IMG/VR virus record: IMGVR_UViG_3300031687_000066 | Location: 1-32,032 of that record | Length of the DNA: 32,032 bases | Reading direction: 5' to 3' (one strand) | From: a virus | Shown: positions 2,301-22,288 of the stretch, piece after piece | Numbering within the stretch: position 1 is the stretch's first letter | How the letters are laid out: each line of letters opens with the position of its first letter | The notes under the pieces: model-generated | Seen by the model: the letters and a program-made list of their open reading frames with translations, nothing else | The model's database searches: none | Told to the model about the DNA's origin: nothing | Translations under genes and position numbers: made by a program

Positions 2301-2625
2301 TCAACTTTTGCAAGTAATAATAAAAAAGATGCACCACCGACTTGCGACAGGAGAAACGTCACAGGCGGCGGCGCATAAGGTGGCTCGGTCGGTCGTAGGC
2401 AGACGCCTCGAAACCCTGCAAGGGCTATACACGCTGGGAGGCAGCGCGTCAGGGGAGCAGATAGCCCGTGCGACCAAGCTATCTCTGTTTAGCATACGCC
2501 CACGCCTTTCGGAACTGTTAGAAATGGAAATGATTGAAGAAACAGAGGGGAGATTTAATAATTCATTTGGAAATAATGAAATCGTTTGGAAAATAACAAG
2601 AAAGGGGAAAACTTATGTACATTAA
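2293..2625 (+). CDS. Winged-helix DNA-binding protein
   Basis: A 110-aa product with an AGGAGAGC ribosome binding site. The segment LYTLGGSASGEQIARATKLSLFSIRPRLSELLEMEMIEE (about residues 46-84) has the helix-turn-helix plus wing layout of MarR/ArsR-like folds, with a beta wing ending IVWKITRKGKTY. It is a likely DNA-binding regulator or replication accessory protein. GC content is higher around 2340-2470 than in the AT-rich small genes upstream. It overlaps both neighbours and is part of the same operon. The DNA target is not evident. Confidence 0.65.
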   Translation: MTNQLLQVIIKKMHHRLATGETSQAAAHKVARSVVGRRLETLQGLYTLGGSASGEQIARATKLSLFSIRPRLSELLEMEMIEETEGRFNNSFGNNEIVWKITRKGKTYVH

Positions 2626-3100
2626 ATTTGAAGAAATTTCAGCTATGTCGGATCAAATCCGAATGATAACCGGCGATGACCAGGATACTTTTCTCGACAC
2701 ACTGGATGGCGAAACAGATGCTATGGAGATTATGGGCAAGCTAGTTGAGGAGCGCACTGAAGCGGCTGCCCACGAAATTGCGATGAGGGATCTCGCTGCA
2801 ACTTATTCAGCCAGAGCAAAGCGGTTATCCGCCAGGCAAAATGCAATTTCAATAACAATTGGACATCTTTTAGACGCTATGGGAGAAACAAAGATCAAGC
2901 ACCCGATAGCCACAATTAGCAGAACCAAAGCCAGATGGGGCGTTAAGATATTTGATGAGGCGGAAATTCCTTCGCAGCTAACAAAAGTTACAATCAAGCC
3001 CGACCTGGCAGCAATTAAAAAACAAATGGATCAGGGCGAAAGCGTTCCAGGATGCCAATTTCAAATGGGCCAACCATCAATCACAGTGAGGATAAAATGA
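2615..3100 (+). CDS. Gp157-family (Sipho_Gp157) protein
   Basis: A 161-aa product. The start at 2615 is supported by AAAGGGGA about 9 bases upstream; a later ATG at 2645 has a poorer site. The pattern fits the Sipho_Gp157 family: an N-terminal region rich in acidic helices, a central helix with KRLSARQNAISITIGHLLDAM, then a strand region (ATISRTKARWGVKIFDEAEIP) and a C-terminal KPDLAAIKKQMDQGESVPG motif. Members often sit beside phage ssDNA-annealing proteins; the molecular role is not firmly known, though a link to recombination or DNA protection has been proposed. Here it lies directly before a putative annealing protein, with an ATGA overlap. Confidence 0.8.
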   Translation: MYIKFEEISAMSDQIRMITGDDQDTFLDTLDGETDAMEIMGKLVEERTEAAAHEIAMRDLAATYSARAKRLSARQNAISITIGHLLDAMGETKIKHPIATISRTKARWGVKIFDEAEIPSQLTKVTIKPDLAAIKKQMDQGESVPGCQFQMGQPSITVRIK

Positions 3101-7261: not shown

Positions 7262-7903
7262 TTATCCTTGTAGTTGTGCAATATTAACATTGCCTGAAAT
7301 TGATATTCTTTCTCCATCATTCTCATAGAATGGGAAGACCTGATGGAGCATCTGCGAGGGAAACATAACCATGTAACCTTCTGCTTCTTTCTCCATGTTG
7401 TACGCAAAGGTAGATACTCTACCCATTGTATTAGTGTAACTAAATGCAAAGTTAGATATGTGGTTATCTGCATTTGACTCAGCACATACAGGCAGCTTGC
7501 GTTGCTCTGCGTAAGACGTAGGTATCTGCATCCATATAACAAAGCTAAACACGCCACTATGATCGTGAGGTGGGTTGAACTCATGCTTCTTCTGGAAGTT
7601 AACCCAGAGGCTTTCAAGGTTAAACCCTTCGCCCTCCTTCATAACTGCCCTCCACGGTGCGCCATAGTTCTGTATGTGGCTGTCCATGAACGAAGGTATT
7701 ACCTCACCGATAAACTTCTCAAGCAACGGGGAGCTAGAGTCCAGCCTGATGGATGAGCTTATGTTACCCGCAAGCTCACCCTTCATGTTATCAGGATTTT
7801 TCCGTGCCTTCTTGATAACTTTCCATATATCTTTCGTCACGTCTTCTGGTAGCTGGGCTTCAACTACACCTACGTTTGGAAAGTGGCGTGGTATAAGTTC
7901 CAT
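7262..7903 (-). CDS. 2OG-Fe(II) oxygenase family protein
   Basis: A 213-aa product with the double-stranded beta-helix pattern of iron/2-oxoglutarate oxygenases. NPPHDHSGVFSFVIWMQIP (about residues 110-128) carries the first metal site (His113-Asp114-His115). GYMVMFPSQMLHQVFPF (about 176-192) carries the distal His187, and GERISISGN (197-205) supplies Arg199 for 2-oxoglutarate. Relatives, often called putative prolyl hydroxylases, are common in cyanophages and other marine phages; their substrates are unknown. It sits directly after the S74 fibre gene (2-base gap), so it may hydroxylate the fibre or another late protein, which is inference. Confidence 0.82.
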   Translation of the reverse strand: MELIPRHFPNVGVVEAQLPEDVTKDIWKVIKKARKNPDNMKGELAGNISSSIRLDSSSPLLEKFIGEVIPSFMDSHIQNYGAPWRAVMKEGEGFNLESLWVNFQKKHEFNPPHDHSGVFSFVIWMQIPTSYAEQRKLPVCAESNADNHISNFAFSYTNTMGRVSTFAYNMEKEAEGYMVMFPSQMLHQVFPFYENDGERISISGNVNIAQLQG

Positions 7904-7905
7904 GC

Positions 7906-10422
7906 TTATCCTTCCAGTGTCGCTATACGAGCTTCAAGCTCTTGGATTGCTTTGACTAGCATTGGTACTAATGCTGATGGAGCAACCTGTTGCGTACCAT
8001 TGGGGTCTTCGCTCCACATAGTAAAACCATTTTTTATACCACTATGTGCATCAATAGCCGTTTTAACTTCTTGAGCCAGAAATCCATGTTGTATTTGTCC
8101 CGATCCATACACAGGGTCAGATGAGTCTGCATCGTATTGAGGTAGCGTATTTGCTACAGCATCCTTCGCGTTCCACTTAAATGTAATAGGGCGTAAATCT
8201 TTAATAAAGTCTAAGCCTACTGCACAGGTAGCAACATCTGTTTTAAGCCGTGAGTCTGATGAAGCTGACCATGAGGTGTCACTACCATCAAGTCCTAATG
8301 TTGCATTACCCGCAGCAGTACCTATTCTAACAGAATTTGCTCCCCCACCGTTGACATTAGATCCAATTATAATTTCTGCATTAATATTTGTAGCGCTCAT
8401 TCCAACATTGTAACCTAATGCAACATTATCTTGACCAGTGGCATGTCCATCAGCAGCTAGGGCACCAACAAATGTGTTTTGAATGCCGTTGGTGACTGAT
8501 TTGCCTGCTTCATAGCCCACTGCTACGTTGTAACTATTTGTAGCTGTAGTATAATTTTGAGTACTTAATGCTCCATTACCTATTGCAACTGCTCGTCTAC
8601 CTAAAGTGTCTGCTGTTTGAGCTTGGTATCCTATTGCAACATTCTCAAATGCAGCTGCTAAAGCATCACCTGCTAACGCACCTATGAGGGTGTTGCTTGT
8701 TCCCGTGGTGATTCCTTCGCCTGCGCTATAACCAACGGCTGTATTGTAAGTCTCAGTAGCAGTCGTAAAGTTCTGTATTTTTAATGCACCTCTACCAATA
8801 GCTGTAGACTTACTACCCATTGTATCACCGCTTAATGCTAATGCTCCTATTGCTGTGTTATCATCTGCATCAGTTAAAGAATCACCAGCTTCGCCCCCCA
8901 CAATGGCGTTTCTTATGCCCGTGGTGACTGCTTCACCAGCTTTAAAACCTACCGCTGTATTGAAACTATCTGTAGCAGTAGTAAAGTTTTGATTTTCTAA
9001 TGCACTGTAACCAACTGCAACACTATTAGAACCTACAGTATCAAACCTTAAAGAATATGCACCAACGGATACATTTTGACGCCCTTCGACTGTAGACGTG
9101 CCACAATTAGAGCCCATAAATGCATTATAACTAGCCGATGTAACAGCATCTCCAGCAAGACCACCAATGAATGTGTTTTCTACGCCAGTGGTGACTTTCA
9201 ATCCTGCTGCATAACCTACAGCGGTATTAAACGTATTTACAGCTGTATCGGGGTTTTGATCTCTTAACGTCCCAGCACCATATGCAACAGCTTTACTACC
9301 AAGAACATTTGTTCCAAGTGAATTATGCCCCATAGCAGTATTTTCAAAGCCTTCAGTTATTGCATCCCCTACTAATCCGCCTATTAGTATGTTTTTTACG
9401 CCCGTTGTGACTGCGGCTCCTGCATCAAAACCTATGGCTACGTTAAACATTTGAACGGCTGTAGCAGGGTTTTGGGAAAGCAAAGCAGATGAACCTAAAG
9501 CAACCGAATGACTTCCTAATACATTTGTACTTAAAGCCTGATAACCTACCGCAACATTATTATCTGCATCAGTAATTGCATCTCCAGCAAGAGAACCTAT
9601 GAGGGTGTTTTTTATGCCTGTGGTTAATACATTACCTGCACTAAATCCAACTGCTGTATTTAAACTATTTGTAGCTGTGGTAAAGTTTTGGACTGCTAAA
9701 GCTGAGTGTCCTATAGCAGTAGATGTGCTTCCTAGAGTATCTTGACCCAAAGCATCTTTACCTACTGCAACATTAAAGTCAGCGTCAGTTAAGGCGTCAC
9801 CTGCAAGGCTACCAATTAAAGTGTTCTGTACGCCCGTGGTGACTGCTGCTCCTGTGTCATAGCCTACAGCCGTGTTAAAACTATTTGTAGCAGTAGTGAA
9901 GTTTTGAGTAGCTAAAGCAGCAACGCCTACAGCAGTTGAGGTGCTACCTTTTGTATCATTTGTTAATGCTAAATATCCTACGGCTACGTTTTGAATACCA
10001 ACACTTAAAGCCTCACCAGTCGCATCACCCAGTAAAGTGTTTTCTCCACCAGTAAGTAGTAATGCTCCTGAATTAAAGCCAACTAATGTGTTATGGTCTG
10101 CCAAAGTAATCGTAGTACCTGCCTCATCGCCCACACAGACGTTGTAGTTACCGCCAGAGGCTATTGAGTTACCTGCGTTAACGCCTGCTCTGAAGTTGGA
10201 TGTACCTGCCGAAGCAGTGATAATATCTGCGCCGTTTGCAAAAGTGGTGTCACCTGTAATAGTACCACCAGTTGACGAAAGAAGAGGAAAGCCCCCTGCT
10301 GTAGATCCGTTATGTACTACCGCGACTTCCTTGTCTGTATCGATAGTTACCTCACCCTCCGCGCCGGTGAATGAAGAATGTTGAGAAGTCGTACCCCTCC
10401 GCATTTTAATTTGAGTGGCCAT
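7906..10422 (-). CDS. Tail fibre with Mtd-like N-terminus, head-type repeats and S74 intramolecular chaperone
   Basis: An 838-aa trimeric fibre candidate. Residues 1-50 (IKMRRGTTSQHSSFTGAEGE then VVHNGSTAGGFPLL) resemble the N-terminal domain of the phage major tropism determinant and of other phage fibres. Residues about 92-690 are tandem repeats of about 72 residues built from NxAVGxxAG / NTLIGxLAGD units, like the left-handed beta-roll of YadA-type heads. The C-terminus (about 722-838) is a Peptidase_S74 chaperone: SDSRLK at 722-727 with the expected self-cleavage at Ser722, then HGFLAQEV and a terminal coiled coil (LVKAIQELEARIATLEG). Cleavage should release the chaperone after folding. 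It overlaps the upstream adaptor-fibre gene by one base (TAATG). Likely the receptor-binding protein. Confidence 0.88.
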   Translation of the reverse strand: MATQIKMRRGTTSQHSSFTGAEGEVTIDTDKEVAVVHNGSTAGGFPLLSSTGGTITGDTTFANGADIITASAGTSNFRAGVNAGNSIASGGNYNVCVGDEAGTTITLADHNTLVGFNSGALLLTGGENTLLGDATGEALSVGIQNVAVGYLALTNDTKGSTSTAVGVAALATQNFTTATNSFNTAVGYDTGAAVTTGVQNTLIGSLAGDALTDADFNVAVGKDALGQDTLGSTSTAIGHSALAVQNFTTATNSLNTAVGFSAGNVLTTGIKNTLIGSLAGDAITDADNNVAVGYQALSTNVLGSHSVALGSSALLSQNPATAVQMFNVAIGFDAGAAVTTGVKNILIGGLVGDAITEGFENTAMGHNSLGTNVLGSKAVAYGAGTLRDQNPDTAVNTFNTAVGYAAGLKVTTGVENTFIGGLAGDAVTSASYNAFMGSNCGTSTVEGRQNVSVGAYSLRFDTVGSNSVAVGYSALENQNFTTATDSFNTAVGFKAGEAVTTGIRNAIVGGEAGDSLTDADDNTAIGALALSGDTMGSKSTAIGRGALKIQNFTTATETYNTAVGYSAGEGITTGTSNTLIGALAGDALAAAFENVAIGYQAQTADTLGRRAVAIGNGALSTQNYTTATNSYNVAVGYEAGKSVTNGIQNTFVGALAADGHATGQDNVALGYNVGMSATNINAEIIIGSNVNGGGANSVRIGTAAGNATLGLDGSDTSWSASSDSRLKTDVATCAVGLDFIKDLRPITFKWNAKDAVANTLPQYDADSSDPVYGSGQIQHGFLAQEVKTAIDAHSGIKNGFTMWSEDPNGTQQVAPSALVPMLVKAIQELEARIATLEG
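8530..9876 (-). repeat. 72-residue (216-bp) tandem repeats inside the S74 fibre gene
   Basis: Residues 183-631 hold six tandem units, five of 72 residues and one (the fourth) of about 89. Each begins N(T/V)AVGxxAG...TTG and ends QNFTTATxSF or a close variant. Diverged partial units flank the array on both sides. DNA copies are diverged but recognisable, so the array probably grew by unequal recombination and then drifted. Confidence 0.85.
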
Positions 10423-11987
10423 TATGCAATACTCCCGTAATCTTCTGTTGATCCGACTGACTGAGTGATTAAACCAAAGTCGGCTAAATATTCTAAAGTT
10501 AATAGTTCATCGACTTTGTTTGTTACAGATGTTGCTGTATTGGCCGCTGTACTAGCCGAGTTTGCTGCTGCTGTAGCCGAGTTAGCAGCATTGGTTGCAT
10601 TTTGCCCAGACGCAGCAATGGAAGAAGCAACAGCCGCAGTCGCCGTAATGTCTGAAGATATTGCAGCAAGCGTATTCATTGCAGATACATTGGATGAAGT
10701 ACCTAACGTATTCATGTCAGATACCACGTCAGATGTAGCGAGTACGTTCATATCCGTGACAACATCTGAAGTACCCAAAATAGCCATGTCTGCAACTAGA
10801 GCGTCGCTACCTAGTATGGCCATGTCAGCAACTAGAGCATCAGTACCTAATATCGCCAGGTCTGCAACGACCGTTGATGTACCGAGCAATGCCATCGCAG
10901 ATACGTTGGCGCTTGTACCGAGTATGCCCATATCTTCAACGATAGCGGCGGTTCCCAATATTCCCATGTCAGTTATAACGGCACTTGTTCCTAGTAAGGC
11001 CATAGCCGTTATGTTAGCTGAAGTACCAATGTTACCCATTGCGGCTACATTGGCGCTTGTACCAAGCAGATTCATGTCCTCAACAACAGCAGCGGTTGCT
11101 AAGACATTCATGTCAGTAACAACGTCTGAGGTTCCCAGGATAGCCATGTCAGCTACAAGGGCATCACTGCCTAAGATTGCCATATCAGCTACGATTGCAT
11201 CAGTACCGAGAATGGCCATGTCAGTTATAACAGCGTTAACGCCTAGATTTGCCATTGCAGATACATTGGCTGACGTGCCTAAAAGCCCCATATCTTCTAC
11301 GATAGCAGCCGTGCCTAAAATACCCATGTCAGTTATAACAGCACTAACCCCTAGCAATCCCATTGCAGTTACATTGCCACTTGTACCTAGCAAGCTCATG
11401 TCTTCTACAATGGCGGCTGTACCTAAGATTGACAGGTCTTCGACAGCAGCAGAAGTGCCGAGAAGGTTAATAGCCGCAGTAACATTAGCTAAAGATTGAA
11501 CGGCAGTAATATTTGGCCCGACCTGTGGGTCGCCAGATGTTTCATTGAAACCAAGGACAGTTCCCTTTCGGGCGTCCTTTAGTGGAAGCTTGAGGTTTGT
11601 AGAAACATCACCAGCGTCAAGAAATAAAGAACGATTAATTTTTTCATCAAGCTGTTGTGCCATGATAACATTGCTATCAAGCTGTTCATTCAGGCTAGAT
11701 GCCAACAAGTCACCGGCAGTAACAAAGTCTGTTGTTCGAGATAACTGACGACCACCAATGATTGTAAGAACATCTGAAGATTGCAAAGCAACTCCAAGGC
11801 TAATTGAACCAGTACCGTTTGAGCTAATTGAAACGCTATAGTCATTAGTTAAAGTTAATGTTGTTGCGTTTTTATGAACAGAAACATCGGTTGCTGCAAG
11901 TATGTTAAAGCTAAAGGCAAAAGGGCCAGTGCTGGTATTACCAGTAAACTGAACTCTCCTTACAACAGGGTTGATTGGGACATTCAT
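10422..11987 (-). CDS. Tail fibre with T7 gp17-like N-terminal anchor and 12-residue repeats
   Basis: A 521-aa product with AAAAGGAAACAG before the ATG. Residues about 8-125 match the phage T7 tail-fibre N-terminal domain (VQFTGNTSTGPFAFSFNIL..., TLTNDYSVS, LTIIGGRQLSRTTDF, LNEQLDSNVIMAQQLDEKI), which attaches fibres to the short tail. Residues 175-438 are 22 perfect-length units of 12 residues. Residues 440-500 are Ala/Ser-rich, probably a coiled coil, and the C-terminus is short (LADFGLITQSVGSTEDYGS). No receptor-binding tip domain is visible, so it probably serves as an adaptor that carries the 838-aa S74 fibre encoded next, with a one-base overlap. Marine podoviruses often carry similar 12-residue repeats. 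Confidence 0.85.
   Translation of the reverse strand: MNVPINPVVRRVQFTGNTSTGPFAFSFNILAATDVSVHKNATTLTLTNDYSVSISSNGTGSISLGVALQSSDVLTIIGGRQLSRTTDFVTAGDLLASSLNEQLDSNVIMAQQLDEKINRSLFLDAGDVSTNLKLPLKDARKGTVLGFNETSGDPQVGPNITAVQSLANVTAAINLLGTSAAVEDLSILGTAAIVEDMSLLGTSGNVTAMGLLGVSAVITDMGILGTAAIVEDMGLLGTSANVSAMANLGVNAVITDMAILGTDAIVADMAILGSDALVADMAILGTSDVVTDMNVLATAAVVEDMNLLGTSANVAAMGNIGTSANITAMALLGTSAVITDMGILGTAAIVEDMGILGTSANVSAMALLGTSTVVADLAILGTDALVADMAILGSDALVADMAILGTSDVVTDMNVLATSDVVSDMNTLGTSSNVSAMNTLAAISSDITATAAVASSIAASGQNATNAANSATAAANSASTAANTATSVTNKVDELLTLEYLADFGLITQSVGSTEDYGSIA
10674..11465 (-). repeat. Array of 22 tandem 12-residue (36-bp) repeats with a higher-order duplication
   Basis: Units follow the pattern (I/L)LGTSA-x-V-x-DM-x, for example ILGTAAIVEDMG. 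An eight-unit block (units 4-11) recurs as units 14-21 in nearly the same order, shifted by 10 units or 120 residues (360 bp). This points to a block duplication within the gene. The period suggests a regular fibrous or helical shaft. Confidence 0.9.
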
Positions 11988-12033
11988 ATCTGTTTCCTTT
12001 TTAATCGCTCAATTTATAACACGGTTATTCTAT

Positions 12034-14502
12034 TCAATCAAACAAGTTTGATAGATCTGGAGATCTTGAAGGTAAAGTGTCACCAGCAGACCACCAAAAT
12101 TTCTGACCGTATTGTTTGTTGTATCTCTTTTCTGTTCTTCTAAATTTTGATTTTGCTTTTGGATCAGCCCATAATTTTGCCTGGTCAAGTACAAGACGCT
12201 CCAGCGCAAGGCGAGAATACCAAAGAGATGATCCTGGTGTATATCTACCAGCGAAGCTAATAAACTCTGACGCCGCGTTTGTATCTTTGCCTTGTACTGT
12301 TTGCATAATATTGCCAACAGTAAGTTTCTGAAGGTCGCTTGCAAACCCAACCACAGGACCGGCAACTGTTTCTGCTAATCCACCGCCAAATCTGTTTACA
12401 TTTCCAAACATAAAATCGCCATAGATACCTAGACCACCGCCCTGCAACAGAGCAGCGCCCCAAAACTCAGGACTATCCATTGGCCTTGGATCTCGACCCT
12501 TGCTCATTTCTTTAAGCTGAATTGCTAAAGCGCCCATTAGTGTCGAGGTAATTAATAGATCTGCAAAGTAAGTGCCTTTGCCACGGGCCGTTGGTTGTGC
12601 CAGGCCACGCATAACATGCGTATTAATTAACGTAACCCCAAAGCCTTTATACATAGCAAAAGATCTGGTCAGCTCACCGGCCAGTGTCCCTGGCTTTGTG
12701 TCTCCAGTTAATGCAGTACGGCCCCTAATAGAAGTGCTTGGAACAGCAAAGTTAGTTTCTGTGTCTATCATAACCATTAAAGCGGTTGCCAAGTCTTGAG
12801 CGTCACCCGCGCTTATATCGGTACGATTTTCAATCATATCAGCAGTAAGGAATGTAGCGCCTTCGTGTTCATAAAGGGGCGTCTTCCTCATTACATCCCA
12901 TTTTTCCGCGCCAATATTGTAGTGGTTCATGCTTTTCTGCATATTTGCCGGTAGCTGATCGAAGGTCTTGCCAACATTATCACCTAGAAAGCCAAGGTAT
13001 TCCATGCCAAAGGCCCATCTTCCGGCCTGGGTCCAAGGGGAAAGCAATGAGGCCCTCATCACGAAATCACTTATTCGCCTGGTAACTTCTGGCCCTGACA
13101 TATCTCCAACATACCGCATTTGTCCGGCTGCAAGTGTTGACCAACCCTCAGCAGTTAGGCCAATTCTTATAGCCAGCTTGCCTTTTTCTTTAAGGGTTAG
13201 AGGGTTCATAAGCTTTAAGTAACTATTAAGAATTTTAGTTTGTGGAAGCCCGTTCATTCCCCTGGCTATTCTACCAAAATTCATATCCGTAACAGCAGCA
13301 ACGGCAGCAGATCCCAGTTGGGCCGCTTGCAGAGTTTGGCGAAGACCGGCAAATCCAGTAGCAAACACCCCGTCAACTGGAGCGTTATTAGTTCCAACAA
13401 TTACAGAATATAGATCATCCACAGCAGACCCTGCTTTTGTGGCCGCTCTCATTTGTTTTTCATCACCTGATAGGTCAGCTTCTTTTCTTAAAGTATCTTT
13501 AACAAATCTGACTGTTGCTTTTGGATCTGGCCCCAAGACCTCCATCATAGCAATGTCGCGTGACATTGTATCTATATGGCCCATCATAGCATCGAATGGG
13601 TTTGGATTACCGAACTTCTCCTGGTATTCCATCCAAGAATCGGCATCCTTAAATACAAAGAAACGATGGTCTTGGTTCCTAGAAGCAAGAGATTTATTGC
13701 CCGAATATTGACCTGGCTTTATTTTGTTAGACCCATCTGTTCTTATAGTTTCATAAGAATCTCGTAAGGCAATCTCAAGTTTTTGCGGAGAAAAAGCCAA
13801 GCCGGTTTGCTCGTCAACCATTTTGTTTAAATCTAAACGGCCACGAATAAAATTGCTCCACTCAGTAAATCCAGCAGCACGAACTTTAATAGAGGCGTGA
13901 AACTGAGGAAGACCCCAATCCATTCTATTAGCTATAGCTCCGCCAGCAGCATTAAACCTTTTGCGAAGATATTCAGCGGAAGCTTTCCAGCCCTCCATCA
14001 TCTGCCTGGCAGAAATATCTCCAGTATCTTCCCCAAAAATTTCACGAATTAAATTCTTTAACTTAGCTTTTTCCTGAGTTTCCCCAATAATATTTCTTTT
14101 AAACGTAGCCAGATATTCATCCATAGTTGTATTAGCTCTCTTTATTACTACGGATTGAATTTGAGCAACGCTTTGAAAGCTAGATGTTTGAGACTCCGAG
14201 AATAAATCTAATGCAGCTTTGTATTTGTTCTGAACGCCACTAACTGTCTTAAAGGTATCCAGATGTATTTTTATTTTCTGCCAGGTCTTAGCCTGGAGCA
14301 TAGCACGGCGCTTGCGCTCTAATATGAGCTTTTTGGTTGCAATGGTTGTTTCGCCAGCAGCTCTTGCTGTAGCAGCAGCCCCACCCATTTGCTTATTATA
14401 CTTAATTTCCAACTCATCAAAGAGGCTAAAAATTTCGTCAGCACTCTCTTGGTTGATTTCTCCAGCTTTAACGCCATCATCAATGCAATTTTTAAAAGTC
14501 AT
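12034..14502 (-). CDS. Internal virion (ejection) protein, T7 gp16 position
   Basis: An 822-aa product, the last of three very large proteins between tail tubular B and the fibres, where T7 carries gp15 and gp16. The N-terminal 300 residues are helical and charged. The C-terminal region has KGRDPRPMDSPEFWGAALLQ followed by a glycine-rich GGGLGIYGDF stretch, which I recall from the ends of podoviral ejection proteins. Such proteins are packed in the head and ejected into the envelope to extend the tail channel. I see no lytic transglycosylase motif like that of T7 gp16. It overlaps the preceding gene by 4 bases. Confidence 0.65.
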   Translation of the reverse strand: MTFKNCIDDGVKAGEINQESADEIFSLFDELEIKYNKQMGGAAATARAAGETTIATKKLILERKRRAMLQAKTWQKIKIHLDTFKTVSGVQNKYKAALDLFSESQTSSFQSVAQIQSVVIKRANTTMDEYLATFKRNIIGETQEKAKLKNLIREIFGEDTGDISARQMMEGWKASAEYLRKRFNAAGGAIANRMDWGLPQFHASIKVRAAGFTEWSNFIRGRLDLNKMVDEQTGLAFSPQKLEIALRDSYETIRTDGSNKIKPGQYSGNKSLASRNQDHRFFVFKDADSWMEYQEKFGNPNPFDAMMGHIDTMSRDIAMMEVLGPDPKATVRFVKDTLRKEADLSGDEKQMRAATKAGSAVDDLYSVIVGTNNAPVDGVFATGFAGLRQTLQAAQLGSAAVAAVTDMNFGRIARGMNGLPQTKILNSYLKLMNPLTLKEKGKLAIRIGLTAEGWSTLAAGQMRYVGDMSGPEVTRRISDFVMRASLLSPWTQAGRWAFGMEYLGFLGDNVGKTFDQLPANMQKSMNHYNIGAEKWDVMRKTPLYEHEGATFLTADMIENRTDISAGDAQDLATALMVMIDTETNFAVPSTSIRGRTALTGDTKPGTLAGELTRSFAMYKGFGVTLINTHVMRGLAQPTARGKGTYFADLLITSTLMGALAIQLKEMSKGRDPRPMDSPEFWGAALLQGGGLGIYGDFMFGNVNRFGGGLAETVAGPVVGFASDLQKLTVGNIMQTVQGKDTNAASEFISFAGRYTPGSSLWYSRLALERLVLDQAKLWADPKAKSKFRRTEKRYNKQYGQKFWWSAGDTLPSRSPDLSNLFD

Positions 14503-16958
14503 ATTGTGCAGAACTCCAAACGCTTAATCATTAATTCCTGCTGATCCAATTCTTTTTTCAAATTTGATAAGGTCATAGGTACAACTTCTAAATCATCTCC
14601 GTCAGCATTTATCTTTTGTCCCATAGGAAATTCAAGATCAAGGTTGACATCTGCCGAAGTGATATCTAAATTGAGGTCGGAGGTATCATCAACCGTTTCT
14701 ACCGGCTGACGCGCTTTTAGATCTGCCTCTATATCATTAGGACTTCTTGCGGAAACATCGGGTGTAACCTCTTCAACACGAAACATATCTTGCTCTAGCT
14801 GGTCGGCCTGGCGTTGCGCTGCTATGCCTGTTGGTTCGTCAAATCCGTCAAGAGCTGGTTCTTCAATCTCAGATCTCGCGATCGGCGCTGGATCATTGAT
14901 AGAGCGTCCAATGTCGCCAGTTCTGATGCTTTCGAAATCGCCTGAGTCAATTGATCGTCTGACAGCATCGACAAATCCGCTAGTTGGATCTGAGTAGTTT
15001 CCTGTAGATCTAGCTGTTTTGGCTGCATCGTTGAGGGCGTCTGAGAGGGGGCCTTTGCGGTTTGCAAGGGCTTGGAGGAGCGCGATCGTTTGGCCATCTG
15101 TTGCTGCCTTTCTTTCATTAGCTGATTTTGCTAAGACGTTGCCTTCTGCCTCTAGGCGGTCAGCGTTGCGAACTAAGGTTTCAAATGCCGCTTTGTCACG
15201 GCGTAACTCTTTATATGTTCGATCTAATATTTTTGCACGTTCAACATAAAAGCTTTCGGCAACCACTTCGTCACCGAACAATGATGTTTGCTCTATTGTT
15301 TCATACCCTGCTTCTCTTACCTGTCGAACAATTGCCTCTGCTTGGAACTGATTGCTTGGGCCAGCTTTAGCCAAAATATTAATTGCAGCAGTTTGTTGGG
15401 CAGGGTCACTAATTAAACGGCCAACAATAGCACCTTGGTTCGCTGGTATTACTCCATTAACTACCGCTTGAAACGGGCCATCTCCCAAAACTATCATGTC
15501 TCTTGCCTGGCGAACTAACTCAGATTTAGGCGGAAGCTCTGACAATCTGCTAGGATCTACCCTTAAAATCTTTGCAGCATCAATAGCCGTTCCAGTACCT
15601 TCTGCAATATTCTTCATTGCCGCTATTACACGAGCCTGTTCTGGCGTTATGCCATCAGCTTGTCGCAACTTGTAAGCGATTACCTTAACGTCTTGGGATG
15701 GATCTTGTGACATAATACGTTTGGCAAGGCCAAGACGCTGGTGGCCATCAGCAACAGCAAGTCTTCCATCAGCGTATTCATAGACAGTAATAACGCCAGC
15801 TTTGTATTTATCCCAAGTGTTAACGCCTTGAAGCCGATCAGTAACGCCAAATTCATCTCCACCCTCTTTGAATTGAAATGTTCTTGCGTCAATCTCAATT
15901 TCCATTGGGTCTAAGCTATAGAAAACACCATCAAGGTTTTCGCCTTCTGCATCTGCTCTGATTGGAAGCCCTGCGTCTTGAGGAATAATAACTGTTTCAG
16001 CATTAGCCGTGGCCGCGCTTGCTGCTTCTAACCGCTGGTTGTGAACTGATATCGCCTCATTCGGATCTGGCGTAACAAATGGGTTTGCCGCTTCAAGATC
16101 CGCCTGGTTTGTCATAGCATCGATTACCAGTTGATCCTCTGGGGTTACGTTCTTTGTACCATTTGCAGTTAAGGCTCTCCATCCCTTTTGGGCCTGGCCT
16201 ACAGTAAGTCTTAATCCAGAACCGGCAAGCGGAAGGGCTGCACCGAAAGCAGCGTTTGCTCCAACATTGTACACAAAATCCTTATATGTGTATTCAAGAC
16301 CTAGCTCTTCGTACCAATCTTTAACTGCTACTTCTGAAATAGCGCCGGTCCCACCGTTAATCAAAGCGTTTTGAGCCACTCTTTTCCAAAGGGATTTAGA
16401 CCATCCCCCGAAAGGCATTGTTGCCTGGGTAATTGGGTCAGCGCCAGTTGCGCCCATTGATCCTATAAACCTACCAATCGCACCGGCCATGCCTGGGTTG
16501 GTTTCGTAAAGCTCTTCAAGCTCGGCCCTTTGCCCCATAACAAAATCCTTTGTCATTTCGGCAAAGGTTTCTTCATTTACAGAAGCTAGATCTGACGGCA
16601 GCGTGGATTGATTATCACGGATAAAACTAAATATGTTTTCTGCTAATTGGTTATAGCCTCTTTGATCTCCACCAATATTACCAGCTAAAGGGGAGCTTAC
16701 TAAAAGCGTACCAGGGTTTATATATTCGTTTTGTCCATAATATTTTGATAAGCCAGGAACTTCAAAATCTTTCAAAGCATCCATAATGGGTTTCCAAGCT
16801 TCAAATTTTGCAAAACCTTCGCTATTAGAACCACTGTCACCATTAAACTTTCCAACGGTAAAGGCCGTTGTTACATTTTCCAACCAAGGCGCTGGGGGCT
16901 TGCTCCTATATTCGCTAGGATTTAAGGCTGGGTTTGCTTGGGAAGATCCAAAAATCAT
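14499..16958 (-). CDS. Internal virion protein with ParB-like (ddrB-type) domain
   Basis: An 819-aa product. Residues about 350-465 look like a ParB/sulfiredoxin-superfamily domain of the ddrB type: ITVYEYADGRLAVADGHQR (399-418, with the DGHQR box at 414-418), then VKVIAYKLRQADGITPEQAR and AAMKNIAEG. ddrB-like ParB domains are known from phage polyvalent proteins, large multidomain proteins thought to be injected with the DNA. The N-terminal 300 residues contain Gly/Ala-rich, possibly membrane-active helices. The C-terminal 270 are charged and probably disordered. Position in the gp15/gp16 block supports packaging in the head. It overlaps its neighbours by 4 bases on both sides. Whether the ParB fold keeps enzyme or DNA-binding activity is unknown. 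Confidence 0.7.
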   Translation of the reverse strand: MIFGSSQANPALNPSEYRSKPPAPWLENVTTAFTVGKFNGDSGSNSEGFAKFEAWKPIMDALKDFEVPGLSKYYGQNEYINPGTLLVSSPLAGNIGGDQRGYNQLAENIFSFIRDNQSTLPSDLASVNEETFAEMTKDFVMGQRAELEELYETNPGMAGAIGRFIGSMGATGADPITQATMPFGGWSKSLWKRVAQNALINGGTGAISEVAVKDWYEELGLEYTYKDFVYNVGANAAFGAALPLAGSGLRLTVGQAQKGWRALTANGTKNVTPEDQLVIDAMTNQADLEAANPFVTPDPNEAISVHNQRLEAASAATANAETVIIPQDAGLPIRADAEGENLDGVFYSLDPMEIEIDARTFQFKEGGDEFGVTDRLQGVNTWDKYKAGVITVYEYADGRLAVADGHQRLGLAKRIMSQDPSQDVKVIAYKLRQADGITPEQARVIAAMKNIAEGTGTAIDAAKILRVDPSRLSELPPKSELVRQARDMIVLGDGPFQAVVNGVIPANQGAIVGRLISDPAQQTAAINILAKAGPSNQFQAEAIVRQVREAGYETIEQTSLFGDEVVAESFYVERAKILDRTYKELRRDKAAFETLVRNADRLEAEGNVLAKSANERKAATDGQTIALLQALANRKGPLSDALNDAAKTARSTGNYSDPTSGFVDAVRRSIDSGDFESIRTGDIGRSINDPAPIARSEIEEPALDGFDEPTGIAAQRQADQLEQDMFRVEEVTPDVSARSPNDIEADLKARQPVETVDDTSDLNLDITSADVNLDLEFPMGQKINADGDDLEVVPMTLSNLKKELDQQELMIKRLEFCTI

Positions 16959-19579
16959 GGCAGGGTCATTTCTATAAGCTTTCGCATATCAATCAAAACA
17001 GCTTGGCCCTCAGTATCTAAAATTGTTTGTTGATTTTTATACTTTATAAAATAATTATTTCCTCCAGCATAAACCAGATTGTAATCATCATTTCCAGAAG
17101 TATAGGCATTTTGCCCAGGACGCACTACTCTTCTTTTAGATCCCCCCAAGGCTTCAAGCATTTCTGGATCTAAGGATGCACCATAAATGGATGCCAATAT
17201 ATCTTGTGGCATTGCAGTTTCTAAAGCGTTCTCATAATTATCCGAAGTAAATCCAGGGAATATATAAGTATTTAAATCTCTAACCTCTTGGACACCGCCA
17301 GTGCCAGCATTTATATCTGCGCCCATTGCGCGGTTTATAGAATCGACCCACTTGGCTTCGTTAAAATTTTCATCATGTTTGGCAGCATCAGCGTAAATTG
17401 CTTTTGCAGTTTCCATAACGCCTGGCATTCCCTCTGGAAGAAAATCAAGGGCTATAGAGGTTAACTTTCTAAATGGTCCGTCTGTATTTGTAGGTGTAAA
17501 TTCAGCAGGCCCTTGTTTGCTTTCTATAAGGACCATACCCTTTAACGCCGCCTCAGCAGTAGCAAGACCGTTGCCGGTTTGAGTTATTACGAGCGCACCG
17601 ACTTGAGCAAAAAACGGAGTTTCCTTAGATATTTCTTCTAAAAACTGTGGAGCATTTTGCCCAGAGCCTTCAACAATAATTCCAAGAACCATCATCTGAT
17701 CGGCCATAGTTCCGTTCTCAAGAAGATTTTTAACTGCTAATGTCTCTGGAACCGTAAGGAATTTTAAAGGAGATCCATACTTCCCAGATACTAACCTAGC
17801 ATCATTTATGCGCTGTGCAATTTGGTCGCTTGAGTTTTCAACATCCATGAAATTTATGGGCGTAATGTTAATACCAACACCTTGACCATTATTTAAGCCG
17901 ACTTTTGCAGCGAATGAAATTGGATCTGTTTTTAGCTCGGCGGTCATATTAGAAAGCATTTTTTGTGCAAGATCTCTAACTTCAAACTCGAAAGGAGTAT
18001 CAACGCCCTCTGCACCCGCAAAGGTATCTTCACCAAGGCTTCCGTCAAGTCCAGGCCCTTGGCGAATTGTAGAACCTGTTTCTAAATAATCTGATATAAA
18101 TTTTTCTATAACCGCAGGATTTGCCATAGATAAATCAGTGGCAATCTCGTTCTGGCCCTCAAGCCTCAATAAATCCTGGATTAATTCTGTCGTTAATCCT
18201 TCTGGAAGATTTCCGATTTTGCTCCTTAAATTATCAATAGATGCTTGGCTTAATGGCTCTCCCGAATCTAACTCTGATTTAAGAGCAGCTAATGATTCGG
18301 TTGCAAAATCAATAAGTGGTTGAGCTTCTTCTTTTTCTTGAGCCTCAAGCCCATCTACTTTTCTTTGAGCTGCACCTAAATAAGAAACAGCGGCGTTGTA
18401 GGTGTCTACTTCAATACGCAAATCACGGCCAACGCCGCCCTGGCCCTCCATTCCACCCTTCAAATTATCGACTTCAGCAGTAAGGTCCACCACTGACATC
18501 TGCCTATACAATGAAGCTTTTTCAGCATTAAACTCCAGCATCCTAACGGCTTCTTGTGCTGCTAGACCACTAGGCCCAAGATTTATAGCTTCCGTCTTTA
18601 GACGTTCTATTGTTGCTAGACTAGGCATCCCACTTTGGGAAAGGATATAGGTCTGTTCTCTAACATCAGCCACAACTCCAGCACTCCTTGAAGCCTGGGC
18701 ACTTAAATTATTGTTGTAAGTAGATTGGAGAGATTTTCTAAATGTTTGAGTTTTCTCCAATGACAAACCAGGAAGATTAGTGGTCATCAGCGTAGAAAGA
18801 ATTTCCTCCTGTTCTGAAACAGAAGATTGATTAAACTCAAATATTGTTTTTTCTTTATAGGCAGCATTGTTAGTGCCAATTTCAAACGCATCAAGCTGGG
18901 CTTCAGTAGCGCCCAACCCAGCAAGCAATGTCACAGCATCCGCCATAGAAACCGCTAATTGATCTTGTGAGTTGCTTCCAGCCGTAATTGCCTGCCCAAG
19001 TATTTCATTAACTTTTAGGTCAGCAGTGGCTGATAGTTTCTCTGCAGCTCTTGCCGCCTGGACGCCAACATAATAATTAGAATACCGCTCTTCAGCTTTG
19101 CCTATAGCCCCGCCAAGCCGTGATTGCAGAAGCATTGAAGCGCCTGGATCTACATCTGCTAGAGAAGATGAGTACCCATCGTTAAGATCTCTTAGTTGAG
19201 CTTGGATCTGAGTGAAGGATGTTTTGTTCTGCTCACCATCATTAAGGATACGCATAATATCAATTTCAGCATCGGCCTGTACCTGGGCAACAGCTACCTG
19301 GCTACCTAAAGCATACGCCGATTTTTCAGCAATACTTCTAGGACCACCTTTTGATTTAATATCTGCAAGAGTAGGCAAAGCCCCATCAGTACGAATAAGC
19401 TCTTCGCCCCTCATCGTAGCATCATCAGCGCCTTGCTTCATTGCAAAATCAGACATCCGATTAACTTGCTGAGAAATATTAAGACCAAGCTTGGCCGCTT
19501 CCCGCGTGTCAGCGAAATCTGTCTGCGTTGGCTGACGGTCAACAATGCCAAGTCGCTGATATCTAGGGAGAATTGCCAT
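16955..19579 (-). CDS. Large internal virion protein, T7 gp15 position
   Basis: An 874-aa product, somewhat longer than T7 gp15 (747 aa). It begins MAILPRYQRLGIVDRQ and then is mainly long alpha-helix, with Ala/Gln/Glu-rich coiled-coil-like segments through residues 60-450. The C-terminus becomes beta-rich with aromatic residues (NDDYNLVYAGGNNYFIKY). No enzyme motif recognised. By order (after a gp14-like gene, before the ParB-domain protein) it should be an inner-core protein ejected into the periplasm. It overlaps the next gene by 4 bases and follows the gp14-like gene after a 10-base gap. Confidence 0.65.
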   Translation of the reverse strand: MAILPRYQRLGIVDRQPTQTDFADTREAAKLGLNISQQVNRMSDFAMKQGADDATMRGEELIRTDGALPTLADIKSKGGPRSIAEKSAYALGSQVAVAQVQADAEIDIMRILNDGEQNKTSFTQIQAQLRDLNDGYSSSLADVDPGASMLLQSRLGGAIGKAEERYSNYYVGVQAARAAEKLSATADLKVNEILGQAITAGSNSQDQLAVSMADAVTLLAGLGATEAQLDAFEIGTNNAAYKEKTIFEFNQSSVSEQEEILSTLMTTNLPGLSLEKTQTFRKSLQSTYNNNLSAQASRSAGVVADVREQTYILSQSGMPSLATIERLKTEAINLGPSGLAAQEAVRMLEFNAEKASLYRQMSVVDLTAEVDNLKGGMEGQGGVGRDLRIEVDTYNAAVSYLGAAQRKVDGLEAQEKEEAQPLIDFATESLAALKSELDSGEPLSQASIDNLRSKIGNLPEGLTTELIQDLLRLEGQNEIATDLSMANPAVIEKFISDYLETGSTIRQGPGLDGSLGEDTFAGAEGVDTPFEFEVRDLAQKMLSNMTAELKTDPISFAAKVGLNNGQGVGINITPINFMDVENSSDQIAQRINDARLVSGKYGSPLKFLTVPETLAVKNLLENGTMADQMMVLGIIVEGSGQNAPQFLEEISKETPFFAQVGALVITQTGNGLATAEAALKGMVLIESKQGPAEFTPTNTDGPFRKLTSIALDFLPEGMPGVMETAKAIYADAAKHDENFNEAKWVDSINRAMGADINAGTGGVQEVRDLNTYIFPGFTSDNYENALETAMPQDILASIYGASLDPEMLEALGGSKRRVVRPGQNAYTSGNDDYNLVYAGGNNYFIKYKNQQTILDTEGQAVLIDMRKLIEMTLP

Positions 19580-19589
19580 GCTTATTTTC

Positions 19590-20087
19590 CTAACGTAATT
19601 GTCCGTATCGATATGCGCCCTGGCCTAAAGAACCGGCAGCAGAAACATACGAAGATAACATGGCAGACCGACCAGCAGATCTATAAATTCCCGCTTGGCT
19701 TTGAGCTTGACCTAGAGCCAATACCGCATTGTCGGCAGCTATTGATTGTTCTCTAACGCCTTCAGACATTGCATAACCTTGCAAGGTAGCCGCAGATCCA
19801 GATGTAGGGTCGACACCGCCAGCAGCAGATCTAGAAATAATTGCCGCTAGTGTTTCATTTAGGTTCCGCAAAGCATCAGCGCCTCTTTGCTTATAAGCAA
19901 TGGCCTCAGATCTACCACGGATTTCTGCTTGTAACGCTTGGGCATCATAGCCTCTTTGCTGGGATCTACCGGCTGACATCTGCCCCGCTGCTGAAATGGC
20001 AGACATGAATAGCTGACCACCTCCAGAAGATGCAAACGTCATGGCGGCTTTTCCCGCCGTTAAAAGTGCTGGTGCTAAAGCAACCAT
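19590..20087 (-). CDS. Internal virion protein, T7 gp14-like
   Basis: A 165-aa product, near T7 gp14 in size (196 aa). It starts with a hydrophobic, Ala/Gly-rich segment (residues 1-35), then a long helical stretch (SQQRGYDAQALQAEIRGRSE...) and Ala/Ser/Gly-rich helices to the end. This pattern, directly after tail tubular B, is typical of gp14-type ejection proteins that insert in the outer membrane. Assignment rests on order, size and composition. Confidence 0.7.
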   Translation of the reverse strand: MVALAPALLTAGKAAMTFASSGGGQLFMSAISAAGQMSAGRSQQRGYDAQALQAEIRGRSEAIAYKQRGADALRNLNETLAAIISRSAAGGVDPTSGSAATLQGYAMSEGVREQSIAADNAVLALGQAQSQAGIYRSAGRSAMLSSYVSAAGSLGQGAYRYGQLR

Positions 20088-20089
20088 AT

Positions 20090-22288
20090 CTAATTCCCCA
20101 CGCTTAAACGATAATCAAGACCAAGAACGGTCATGGCCAAAGGCACGGTTTGGCTTATTGTAATTTGTCCCGTTTGACTAAAGCCCAAAAATCCATGTGC
20201 TATTTTAGTGCCGGTAAATGGCTGAACTGCTATGTCAAGGACATCAACGCCCAGGTTTCTAAACGAAATTTCTTTTTCATTAATGGTCATGTCTTGAGTG
20301 TTGTTTACAATTGCATCAACTTGAATAATCCGCTTCTTAAATCCCTGCACAGATCCACCCGAAAGCACAGGCTCGGCTGGCATAGTTCTAACTGTAACAG
20401 GATAATCTAATCCGACTTGAAAACTAGATGTTGCCGGTGTTGTAAAAGTAATTGTGAATGGTGAGGCGGGAACCGTCTTAGAGGCCAGCACAACGCCATC
20501 ACGAATGATTGCTACTGTCTTTCCTTGGAGCTGTGTCATTGCCACTGAATTGGCAGCTCCGCCGGTCTTGGCGCTATCCAGCGTAAGACTAGAATCAAAC
20601 TTCTCCAGCATATACCTAACTTGGCTGTTTACTGTGCGTTTAACAATTACATAAACATCAGCAATTTCAACCGATACTGCAATAAAATCGCCATCTGTAG
20701 TAAACCGACTAGGAGCAATAACATTCTGCCCCACTAGAATAGAGTAAACGGCCATAGATCCGTCTGTTCCATTCACAATAAATATACGATCACTCTCATC
20801 AGTAGAGGCAGCGCGCCTAGCAGCTAGGTCAATTGGGTTCCTTAAAAGGTGAGAGCTAAGAGCAGAAAGAGGCTGTACCTGGTAAGACGCAGTTGTGTCA
20901 CCAAACTGGAAGGCGTTTAAAGATTTACCCTGCCTTTGAATAAACACGGTAGCACCGTTAAGATCTTCAATTGGAAGACCAGGCTTTGCTCCTAATCGTG
21001 TTTGTGGTCGAACAAAAAAAGTAGATGGAGTAATTGGATTATCGCCAGACTGAAGAACCGCAAACTCTGCGCCAGTAGTAAAGACGCGCAAGTCGTTTCC
21101 AGAAAACAAATTAACAATGCTGTTAAGCTGATTTGTGTTTATTGTTGCCTCAACGCTTTCATCATCAAGCCCACTTCCAGCGCCGAAGTCAAAGAAATTT
21201 ATAACTTGCGAACCCCATATTGTATTAACTCTTGATTTAGATCCACCAAAATATAGACGCCCCTCATGGAAAGCGGCAGACCTGGGCCAGCCACGGGCAT
21301 TAGACCAAACGTCTTCATATCCCTGTTCGCTTTCCCAGCTTCCACCGGCAACGAAATTTGTGTCAAAAAAACTAACTTCGGTAACAGCCTTCATTACCGT
21401 GTTAGAAACAAACTCAACATAACGAGCGCGGCCAAATGTGCTTGTTACTTGAGCAAATCCACCAACGGCAGAAGGTTCAAAGGGATGTACAGAATAGTTT
21501 GACGTTCCATTCGGCGCAGTATCCCAAGGAGGATATACTGTTAGTACCTTTGAAGAACCAACATAATCCTCAACCTGGCGCGTTTGACCTGATCCAGTAC
21601 CAGAAATAATTTTGATAAACATTCCGTTAGGTGCATCATCGGACGAATACGGAGTAAACGATTTTAACGTAATTGTGTTGGCTGAACCAGCTTGAGCATT
21701 TCCAGAATCCACCTGTGCACCAGTCGCCGTTATAGTAATATTTCCAGTAGACGCGCTGGGCGTAATTCTGAAATTTGGCACGTGCGTGCTTAATGCATAG
21801 GGGTATTGGGGCAAGTTTTTTAAAGGAAGGTTTTCTAAAGTCCAGCTTGTATCTGAATTTCTAACTAAACGCTTTGTTTGCAAGTCCTCATGGCAAAGTA
21901 TCAGTGTATCTACAGCTTGAGTGTAATTTATCTCATCAAGCATAGCAGCCGTAATAGGTGTAGCCGCTATGAAATCATTGCCAGTCCCATTAATATTTGC
22001 TTGAAGAACTCCAGCCTTAAAAACGTAAATTCTTTGATTAACAAAAACCAAAGAGTAACTATCAGTTACGCTAAACTCAAATGGAATTATCTTAAAATCA
22101 GTAAAACCTGTACCAAAGTCATAGACAAATCTTAAACCCTCACGGCGCTTAAAACCACCTTGCGGCTGAATGACTACATTCGTGGCTTCCTCAACAGCGT
22201 TTTGATATTGTGCCAAATCTGTCCGAGCGCGAAGAAGAGGATCAAGCTCACCAACAGAAAAATTTGTTTGGAACTGTACAACCCGCAT
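20090..22288 (-). CDS. Tail tubular protein B (tail nozzle), T7 gp12-like
   Basis: The nozzle of the short tail. The 732-aa product (T7 gp12 is 794) begins MRVVQFQTNFSVGELDPLL and continues with YQNAVEEATNVVIQPQGGFKRR..., a strongly typical start in podoviral nozzle proteins. It is beta-rich throughout, with PFEFSVTDSYSLVFVNQRIYVF and RGWPRSAAFHEGRLYFGGS as characteristic segments. It lies one base after tail tubular A and 2 bases before the gp14-like gene. No truncation seen. Confidence 0.9.
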   Translation of the reverse strand: MRVVQFQTNFSVGELDPLLRARTDLAQYQNAVEEATNVVIQPQGGFKRREGLRFVYDFGTGFTDFKIIPFEFSVTDSYSLVFVNQRIYVFKAGVLQANINGTGNDFIAATPITAAMLDEINYTQAVDTLILCHEDLQTKRLVRNSDTSWTLENLPLKNLPQYPYALSTHVPNFRITPSASTGNITITATGAQVDSGNAQAGSANTITLKSFTPYSSDDAPNGMFIKIISGTGSGQTRQVEDYVGSSKVLTVYPPWDTAPNGTSNYSVHPFEPSAVGGFAQVTSTFGRARYVEFVSNTVMKAVTEVSFFDTNFVAGGSWESEQGYEDVWSNARGWPRSAAFHEGRLYFGGSKSRVNTIWGSQVINFFDFGAGSGLDDESVEATINTNQLNSIVNLFSGNDLRVFTTGAEFAVLQSGDNPITPSTFFVRPQTRLGAKPGLPIEDLNGATVFIQRQGKSLNAFQFGDTTASYQVQPLSALSSHLLRNPIDLAARRAASTDESDRIFIVNGTDGSMAVYSILVGQNVIAPSRFTTDGDFIAVSVEIADVYVIVKRTVNSQVRYMLEKFDSSLTLDSAKTGGAANSVAMTQLQGKTVAIIRDGVVLASKTVPASPFTITFTTPATSSFQVGLDYPVTVRTMPAEPVLSGGSVQGFKKRIIQVDAIVNNTQDMTINEKEISFRNLGVDVLDIAVQPFTGTKIAHGFLGFSQTGQITISQTVPLAMTVLGLDYRLSVGN

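Follow-up and report, generated by a model that had tools for sequence, protein, structure and literature searches.

The presence of a ParB-like domain in a presumed ejection protein of a marine short-tailed phage raises the question of what such a domain would do if it were carried into the host cell along with the viral genome. The gene at issue lies in a stretch of 32,032 nt from an IMG/VR virus record (hereafter the window, meaning the whole stretch) and encodes 819 amino acids. The reading favored here, which is judged to be moderately probable, is that the product is a polyvalent-type ejection protein of a podovirus, in which a ParB-HTH module that binds DNA is combined with a slot for swappable payloads, the latter being empty in this copy.

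The gene and its virion gene block

The open reading frame, which the initial annotation had reported without its strand, runs on the minus strand from an ATG at 16958 to a stop codon at 14499-14501. It overlaps each of its two neighbors by 4 bases and thus belongs to one tight late operon. The following features define the gene and its surroundings.

14499-16958, minus strand: predicted ejection (internal virion) protein of 819 aa with a ParB-HTH module and an empty payload slot
15954-16958, minus strand: N-terminal helical region, residues 1-335, presumed to be the virion or ejection part
12034-14502, minus strand: neighboring virion structural protein (phrog_684, 1.2e-177)
16955-19579, minus strand: 874-aa protein at the T7 gp15 position, identified by position only
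19590-20087, minus strand: 165-aa internal virion protein at the T7 gp14 position (phrog_418, 1.8e-7)

This podoviral structural operon includes a large terminase-like gene, a head-tail connector or portal gene (PF12236, 2.7e-97), and a capsid gene (PF19821, 9e-68), and continues through tail proteins A/B (phrog_394, phrog_376), the phrog_418 protein, the 874-aa protein, the 819-aa gene, and the phrog_684 protein. Placement of the gene in an internal virion block, as originally claimed, is supported by the phrog_418 and phrog_684 matches of its neighbors. Dunaliella viridis virus SI2 (HQ332136 / NC_023841) shares the virion gene order of the window, and its counterpart of the 819-aa protein is 36.6% identical over residues 325-749. 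An algal host is on record for this virus, and its structural operon is that of a bacteriophage and is syntenic with the window.

Pfam and NCBIfam searches returned no significant match for the 819-aa protein, including none to a lytic transglycosylase or a metallopeptidase, and phrog_8824 matches its residues 142-243 (9.4e-7). Gene order and size class among the virion genes resemble those of the T7 gp14-gp15-gp16 ejection proteins, and position in the gene block agrees with gp16, but no sequence match to gp16 or to its lytic transglycosylase was found with Pfam or PHROG profiles. Neither a ParB-HTH module nor a payload is known among the parts of T7 gp16. Two sets of apparent similarities were discarded: matches of the single sequence to polyubiquitin structures in the PDB, which are sums of tiny repeats worth about 5 bits each, and HipA_2 and GNAT matches in Pfam, whose E values of about 0.1-0.3 are at chance level.

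Several other genes of the window deserve mention in their own right. The 874-aa neighbor, for which Pfam and PHROG searches gave no family match, is unusually divergent (67-91% DNA identity over window positions 17300-19300, compared with mostly 90-100% among relatives for the rest of the block) and may co-evolve with its partners. A 2OG-Fe(II) oxygenase-like protein (7262-7903; phrog_81, 2.2e-32) is encoded between the lysis and tail spike genes, and a Mu Gam-like DNA end-protection protein (phrog_253, 1.8e-18) is encoded at 2615-3100.

A predicted partition-type ParB fold

The central part of the protein was examined by alignment with 65 relatives and by AlphaFold2 modeling of the full-length protein with 65 sequences. 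These analyses delimit the features below.

15594-15923, minus strand: ParB-like N-terminal domain, residues 346-455 (about 345-455), from the model and structural matches
15309-15593, minus strand: HTH-like helical domain spanning residues 456-550, included in the ParB/Noc structural matches
14919-15308, minus strand: beta-hairpin (residues 552-569) followed by helices as far as about residue 680, with conserved LFG and E573, from the alignment and model
15867-15878, minus strand: FQFK (residues 361-364), unchanged in all 65 relatives
15735-15749, minus strand: DGHQR (residues 404-408), in the position of the ParB GERR box
15606-15614, minus strand: K-N-I (residues 449-451), in the position of the ParB EN(I/L) box

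The model is most confident over residues 380-600 (pLDDT about 80-93), with values of about 80-90 in the ParB-like core and about 81-93 in the HTH-like part. In the N-terminal domain it places strands at 346-349, 389-394, 400-404, and 426-432 and helices at 406-418 and 439-452. When the full-length model was compared with the PDB by Foldseek, the best 22 matches were all Noc, ParB, or Spo0J proteins, with the best at E 4.7e-4 (probability 1.00, 227 columns). These matches span about 160-227 columns and take in both the N-terminal ParB domain and the HTH domain. TM-scores for the 22 are modest (0.34-0.49 by target length), as is expected of long local alignments across two divergent domains. 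Among viral models, it matches polyvalent proteins, two 'DdrB-like' proteins (3e-5 and 1.6e-4), and phage ParB proteins. A ParB-superfamily (ParB/sulfiredoxin) fold with a predicted alpha+beta core, as the initial annotation had proposed, thus holds at the fold level. The modeled layout, an N-terminal domain followed by an HTH domain, is that of partition-type ParB/Noc proteins, so the bounds of about 350-465 first given for the DGHQR segment prove too narrow, even though the segment itself is real.

Residues invariant across the 65 aligned relatives include FQFK 361-364, G371, V372, E394, DGHQR 404-408, A412, N450, I451, D460, and LFG 560-562, although the invariance of DGHQR is partly due to ascertainment because DGHQR patterns helped to find the relatives added in the second and third collection rounds. 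A homolog from Prochlorococcus phage P-SCSP1g, found independently, has NGHNR instead. Judged from the alignment, the DGHQR segment is far from chance. FQFK appears by inspection to occupy the place of the ParB NPxQPR box, and in the K-N-I box the Asn and Ile are invariant and the Glu is replaced.

It is the fold, not the sequence, that ties the module to ParB. A profile-profile comparison with 22 ParB proteins is collinear, aligning GHQR with GERR and KNI with ENI, but its score of 20.8 was equaled by 2 of 200 column shuffles, and the signal was lost with alignment A1 or when only chromosomal ParBs were used. The canonical GERR and ENxxR boxes are not kept; they read GHQR and KNIAE, and only the G, the second R, and the N are retained. 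Nucleotide gating of the module is uncertain because the boxes are kept only in part. Also, the window holds no excess of parS-like palindromes, with one perfect 14-mer against about 2 expected.

Relation to DdrB

The domain had originally been called ddrB-type. DdrB-like domains are described as having an Arg in the pocket and an extra helix with a Tyr (PMC5512222), and DdrB relatives carry an SGNGR or GGNxR motif and an insert helix with a Tyr before the last strand. Neither hallmark is present in the window protein, which has DGHQR in place of the motif and in which helix 406-418 runs directly to strand 426-432 without an insert. The PF18763 profile search that the initial annotation proposed gave no match in the window and none in 23 relatives at E<=1, compared with 2.1e-39 for P1 DdrB as a control, and hhalign gave a probability of 0.4% for the module against the P1 DdrB family. 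Membership in the ddrB type was rejected on these grounds, and the domain is a ParB-superfamily domain of another kind.

Distribution and exchange of the module

The module is found in phage proteins of very different sizes. In relatives, its partner domains include LPD38, GNAT, methyltransferase, helicase, PBECR1, zeta, and synthetase domains, none of which occurs with it in the window. The kinship with polyvalent proteins that had been suggested finds support in a 3912-aa protein of Ruegeria phage 45A6, part of which is 44% identical to the ParB-like region, and in fold matches of the model to viral proteins that bear the name 'Large polyvalent protein associated domain-containing'. The Ruegeria phage protein (positions 9805-21543) is annotated as hypothetical and combines the module with helicase, methyltransferase, GNAT, and LPD38 domains, as is typical of a polyvalent protein. 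Furthermore, phrog_10691, a family of unannotated giant phage proteins, matches residues 328-654 (1.3e-62).

Other occurrences were noted along the way. Prochlorococcus phage P-SCSP1g (OM416768, positions 8621-16312) encodes an unannotated, presumed internal virion protein of 2563 aa with a ParB-HTH module that is 28% identical over about 300 aa; Pfam recognizes no payload domain in this protein. An earlier study was unable to annotate the genes of P-SCSP1 that are presumed to encode internal virion proteins (PMC9860041). The C-terminus of the long phrog_21 ('portal') family, profile positions 1017-1322, matches the module at 3e-24, which suggests that a portal is fused to the same ParB-like domain elsewhere. 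Relatives of the module are also found in alphaproteobacterial Aureimonas genomes (L175 and L183), probably in prophages, and the proteins concerned have a nuclease-like PBECR1 domain downstream of the module.

Comparison of the window with a near relative (L109/L108/L004) reveals a further property of the module, which involves the following segment.

14880-15930, minus strand: ParB-HTH-mid segment, exchanged cassette, 60-78% DNA identity to L109/L108/L004, with limits taken from 150-bp windows

DNA identity is 87-100% just before the cassette, falls to 60-66% from about 15930 to 15180, is 76-78% from there to about 14880, and returns to 91-99% thereafter. At the protein level, identity is 96% before the cassette and 61%, 54%, and 67% in the ParB, HTH, and mid parts, respectively. 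The segment thus behaves as an exchanged cassette. In dN/dS comparisons, the nearest relative shows almost no differences in the ParB part, and dS is saturated in the others.

These data bear on the possibility that the module has lost its nucleotide and DNA functions and serves as a structural scaffold, helping to assemble the internal core or a trans-envelope channel. The degenerate GERR and ENxxR boxes, the location of the gene among virion genes, and the lack of a parS-like site in the window are consistent with such a role. However, conservation is among the highest at pocket-like residues and in the region of the putative recognition helix, the module also occurs in long polyvalent proteins of a different architecture, and allele exchange at the ParB-HTH segment suggests a role in specificity. 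A scaffold is regarded as an unlikely explanation. The favored reading of a DNA-binding module draws on the partition-type ParB/Noc matches, including the HTH domain, which argue for DNA binding rather than the nuclease activity that the initial annotation had also entertained.

An exchangeable payload slot in relatives

Most relatives are longer than the window protein (1039-1313 aa), because one more domain lies after residue ~735, ahead of a conserved tail.

14502-14636, minus strand: conserved C-terminal tail, residues 775-819, ending in L-x-x-C-x-x, found behind every cargo type in relatives

An effector domain lies between the ParB module and this tail in 52 of 59 nonredundant full-length relatives. 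The payloads comprise 22 zeta-toxin-like kinases and 30 alarmone-synthetase-like domains (21 of type A and nine of type B), and the remaining seven copies, including that of the window, are empty. The zeta payloads match PF06414 (1.7e-38 to 2.4e-14) and a zeta toxin in the PDB (6.9e-9), and their Walker A and other residues are largely invariant. Type A synthetases match Tas1 by profile at 1.7e-18. In a model of the type A insert of one close relative (L070), pLDDT exceeds 90 across the greater part of residues 10-190, and Foldseek ranks Tas1 first (6e-7) and small alarmone synthetases next. Enzymatic activity of type A is plausible, since three invariant residues, D78, R81, and E133 (numbered along the L070 tail), correspond in the alignment to the D-x-x-R and GEIQ motifs of Tas1. 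Type B is related to type A even without the shared tail (score 42.6, compared with 24.6 for the best of 100 shuffles) and has no PDB match. Some type A copies hold a second ParB-like 'DGNST' segment ahead of the payload, and in three (L126, L140, and L097) an extra segment ahead of the synthetase matched no family.

Phages that otherwise resemble one another swap cargo types. On a tree built from residues 345-670, the distribution of payloads calls for at least 27 changes, against three possible, which is hardly below the mean of 29.4 obtained with shuffled labels; thinning of the census set at 92% identity favors pairs that differ in payload, but the pairs themselves stand. Three copies with ParB regions 98.8-99.7% identical (L121, L120, and L123) carry payloads A, B, and zeta. 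Likewise, two phages with 91-94% DNA identity over about 12 kb (L073 and L063) carry payloads B and A, and the same holds for another pair (L092/L091) over about 9 kb. The flanks around differing payloads retain 82-94% DNA identity.

This pattern is relevant to the proposal that the ParB-like domain is itself the injected effector, acting as an NTP-regulated DNase or degrading NTPs, and directed against host DNA or defenses. Invariant residues do cluster in a putative nucleotide pocket, and such activities have been proposed for the DdrB-like ParB domains of polyvalent proteins (PMC5512222). Yet the domain is not DdrB-like by profile, motif, or insert, its structural matches are partition-type ParB/Noc proteins including the HTH domain, and it is the constant part of proteins in which toxin-like enzymes are the changing part. 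An effector role for the ParB-like domain is rated as quite improbable.

The empty slot of the window copy

Under the favored reading of a ParB-HTH protein with a swappable payload, the window copy is notable for what it lacks.

14684-14690, minus strand: empty payload slot with a 7-bp overlap at the joint; 702 bp in L070/L002

The relative L070/L002 shares 92% DNA identity with the window over 14 kb and 98% protein identity over residues 1-758, and carries at the single point of the window gap an in-frame insert of 702 bp (234 codons) that is alarmone-synthetase-like. More distant relatives hold type A at the slot, so loss in the window lineage, probably by in-frame deletion, is the simplest reading of the sequences. 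An assembly artefact, with a true protein of about 1053 aa, would fit the insert in the sister contig and the overlap of only 7 bp, but is very improbable because a contig from another metagenome (3300031683; L071/L005) has the identical joint within 16 kb that are 99.98% identical to the window, and a payload is likewise missing from six other distinct relatives.

Comparison with known systems

ParB, RelA/SpoT, and zeta-like domains have already been described in phage polyvalent proteins (PMC5512222). Like these proteins, of which P1 DdrB (PF18763) is an example, the window protein is a large phage protein encoded in a late operon, is predicted to be injected, and has a ParB-superfamily domain, which in relatives is combined with alarmone-synthetase and zeta-like domains. 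Unlike them, it has a non-DdrB domain with a partition-type ParB + HTH fold and no metallopeptidase was found in it, and there is one payload region in a fixed slot with a constant tail behind it.

The MuF polymorphic toxins of temperate phages, including Apk2, also employ (p)ppApp synthetases (PMC5576092, PMC12226406). They share with the present family a virion-associated constant part, which is presumptive here, and exchangeable toxin domains that in relatives include putative (p)ppApp synthetases. They differ in that the constant part here is a podoviral ejection-type protein with a ParB-HTH module, no MuF domain being matched by Pfam, and in that the payload lies before a conserved tail rather than at the very end.

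ParB, Noc, and Spo0J structures (PDB 7nfu, 7bnk, 6t1f, 1vz0) share the predicted N-domain + HTH fold and recognizable positions of the GERR and EN boxes, but sequence similarity is weak, the boxes read GHQR and KNIAE, and there is no partition context. The payload domains of relatives find their best matches in the type VI effector Tas1 (PDB 6ox6), a (p)ppApp-making toxin and the best solved-structure match of type A, and in zeta toxins (PF06414); unlike those toxins, they ride on a phage virion-type protein, and they are absent from the copy in the window.

The literature searched yielded no paper on a podoviral ParB-HTH ejection protein with an exchangeable payload slot, none of relevance that links ParB to ejection or internal virion proteins, and none joining a zeta toxin with an ejection protein.

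Proposed function and implications

The favored explanation can be set out as a sequence of events. The protein would be packaged in the virion, with its N-terminal helical half as the virion or ejection part, and would leave together with the phage DNA. The ParB/Noc-like module would then enter the cell with the genome, where it most likely binds DNA, possibly gated by nucleotide, and might tether or guide the incoming genome or act on host DNA. The C-terminal payload slot would be closed by the conserved 45-residue tail. In relatives, the zeta-toxin-like kinase or Tas1-like alarmone synthetase held there would act on the host at entry, by phosphorylating cell-wall precursors or synthesizing (p)ppApp if the analogy to zeta toxins and Tas1/Apk applies. 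In the phage of the window, whose payload an in-frame deletion has presumably removed, the ParB-HTH module alone would reach the cell. A broader and more tentative view, which we hold to be possible but somewhat doubtful, is that podoviral ejection proteins constitute an unrecognized class of polymorphic injected toxins, each with a DNA-binding ParB-HTH clamp that enters together with the genome, one exchangeable host-directed enzyme (a zeta-like kinase or a Tas1-like (p)ppApp synthetase), and a ParB-HTH allele that is itself exchanged as a specificity cassette.

If the proposed explanation is true, the ejection apparatus of marine short-tailed phages would be a modular effector-delivery system. 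Internal virion genes of very large size that lack annotation, for instance one in the Prochlorococcus P-SCSP1 phages, would thereby be explained. Furthermore, near-identical phages with different payloads or none would offer a natural comparison for the role of injected enzymes during the first minutes of an infection. The exchange of ParB-HTH alleles would make the DNA specificity of the module testable.
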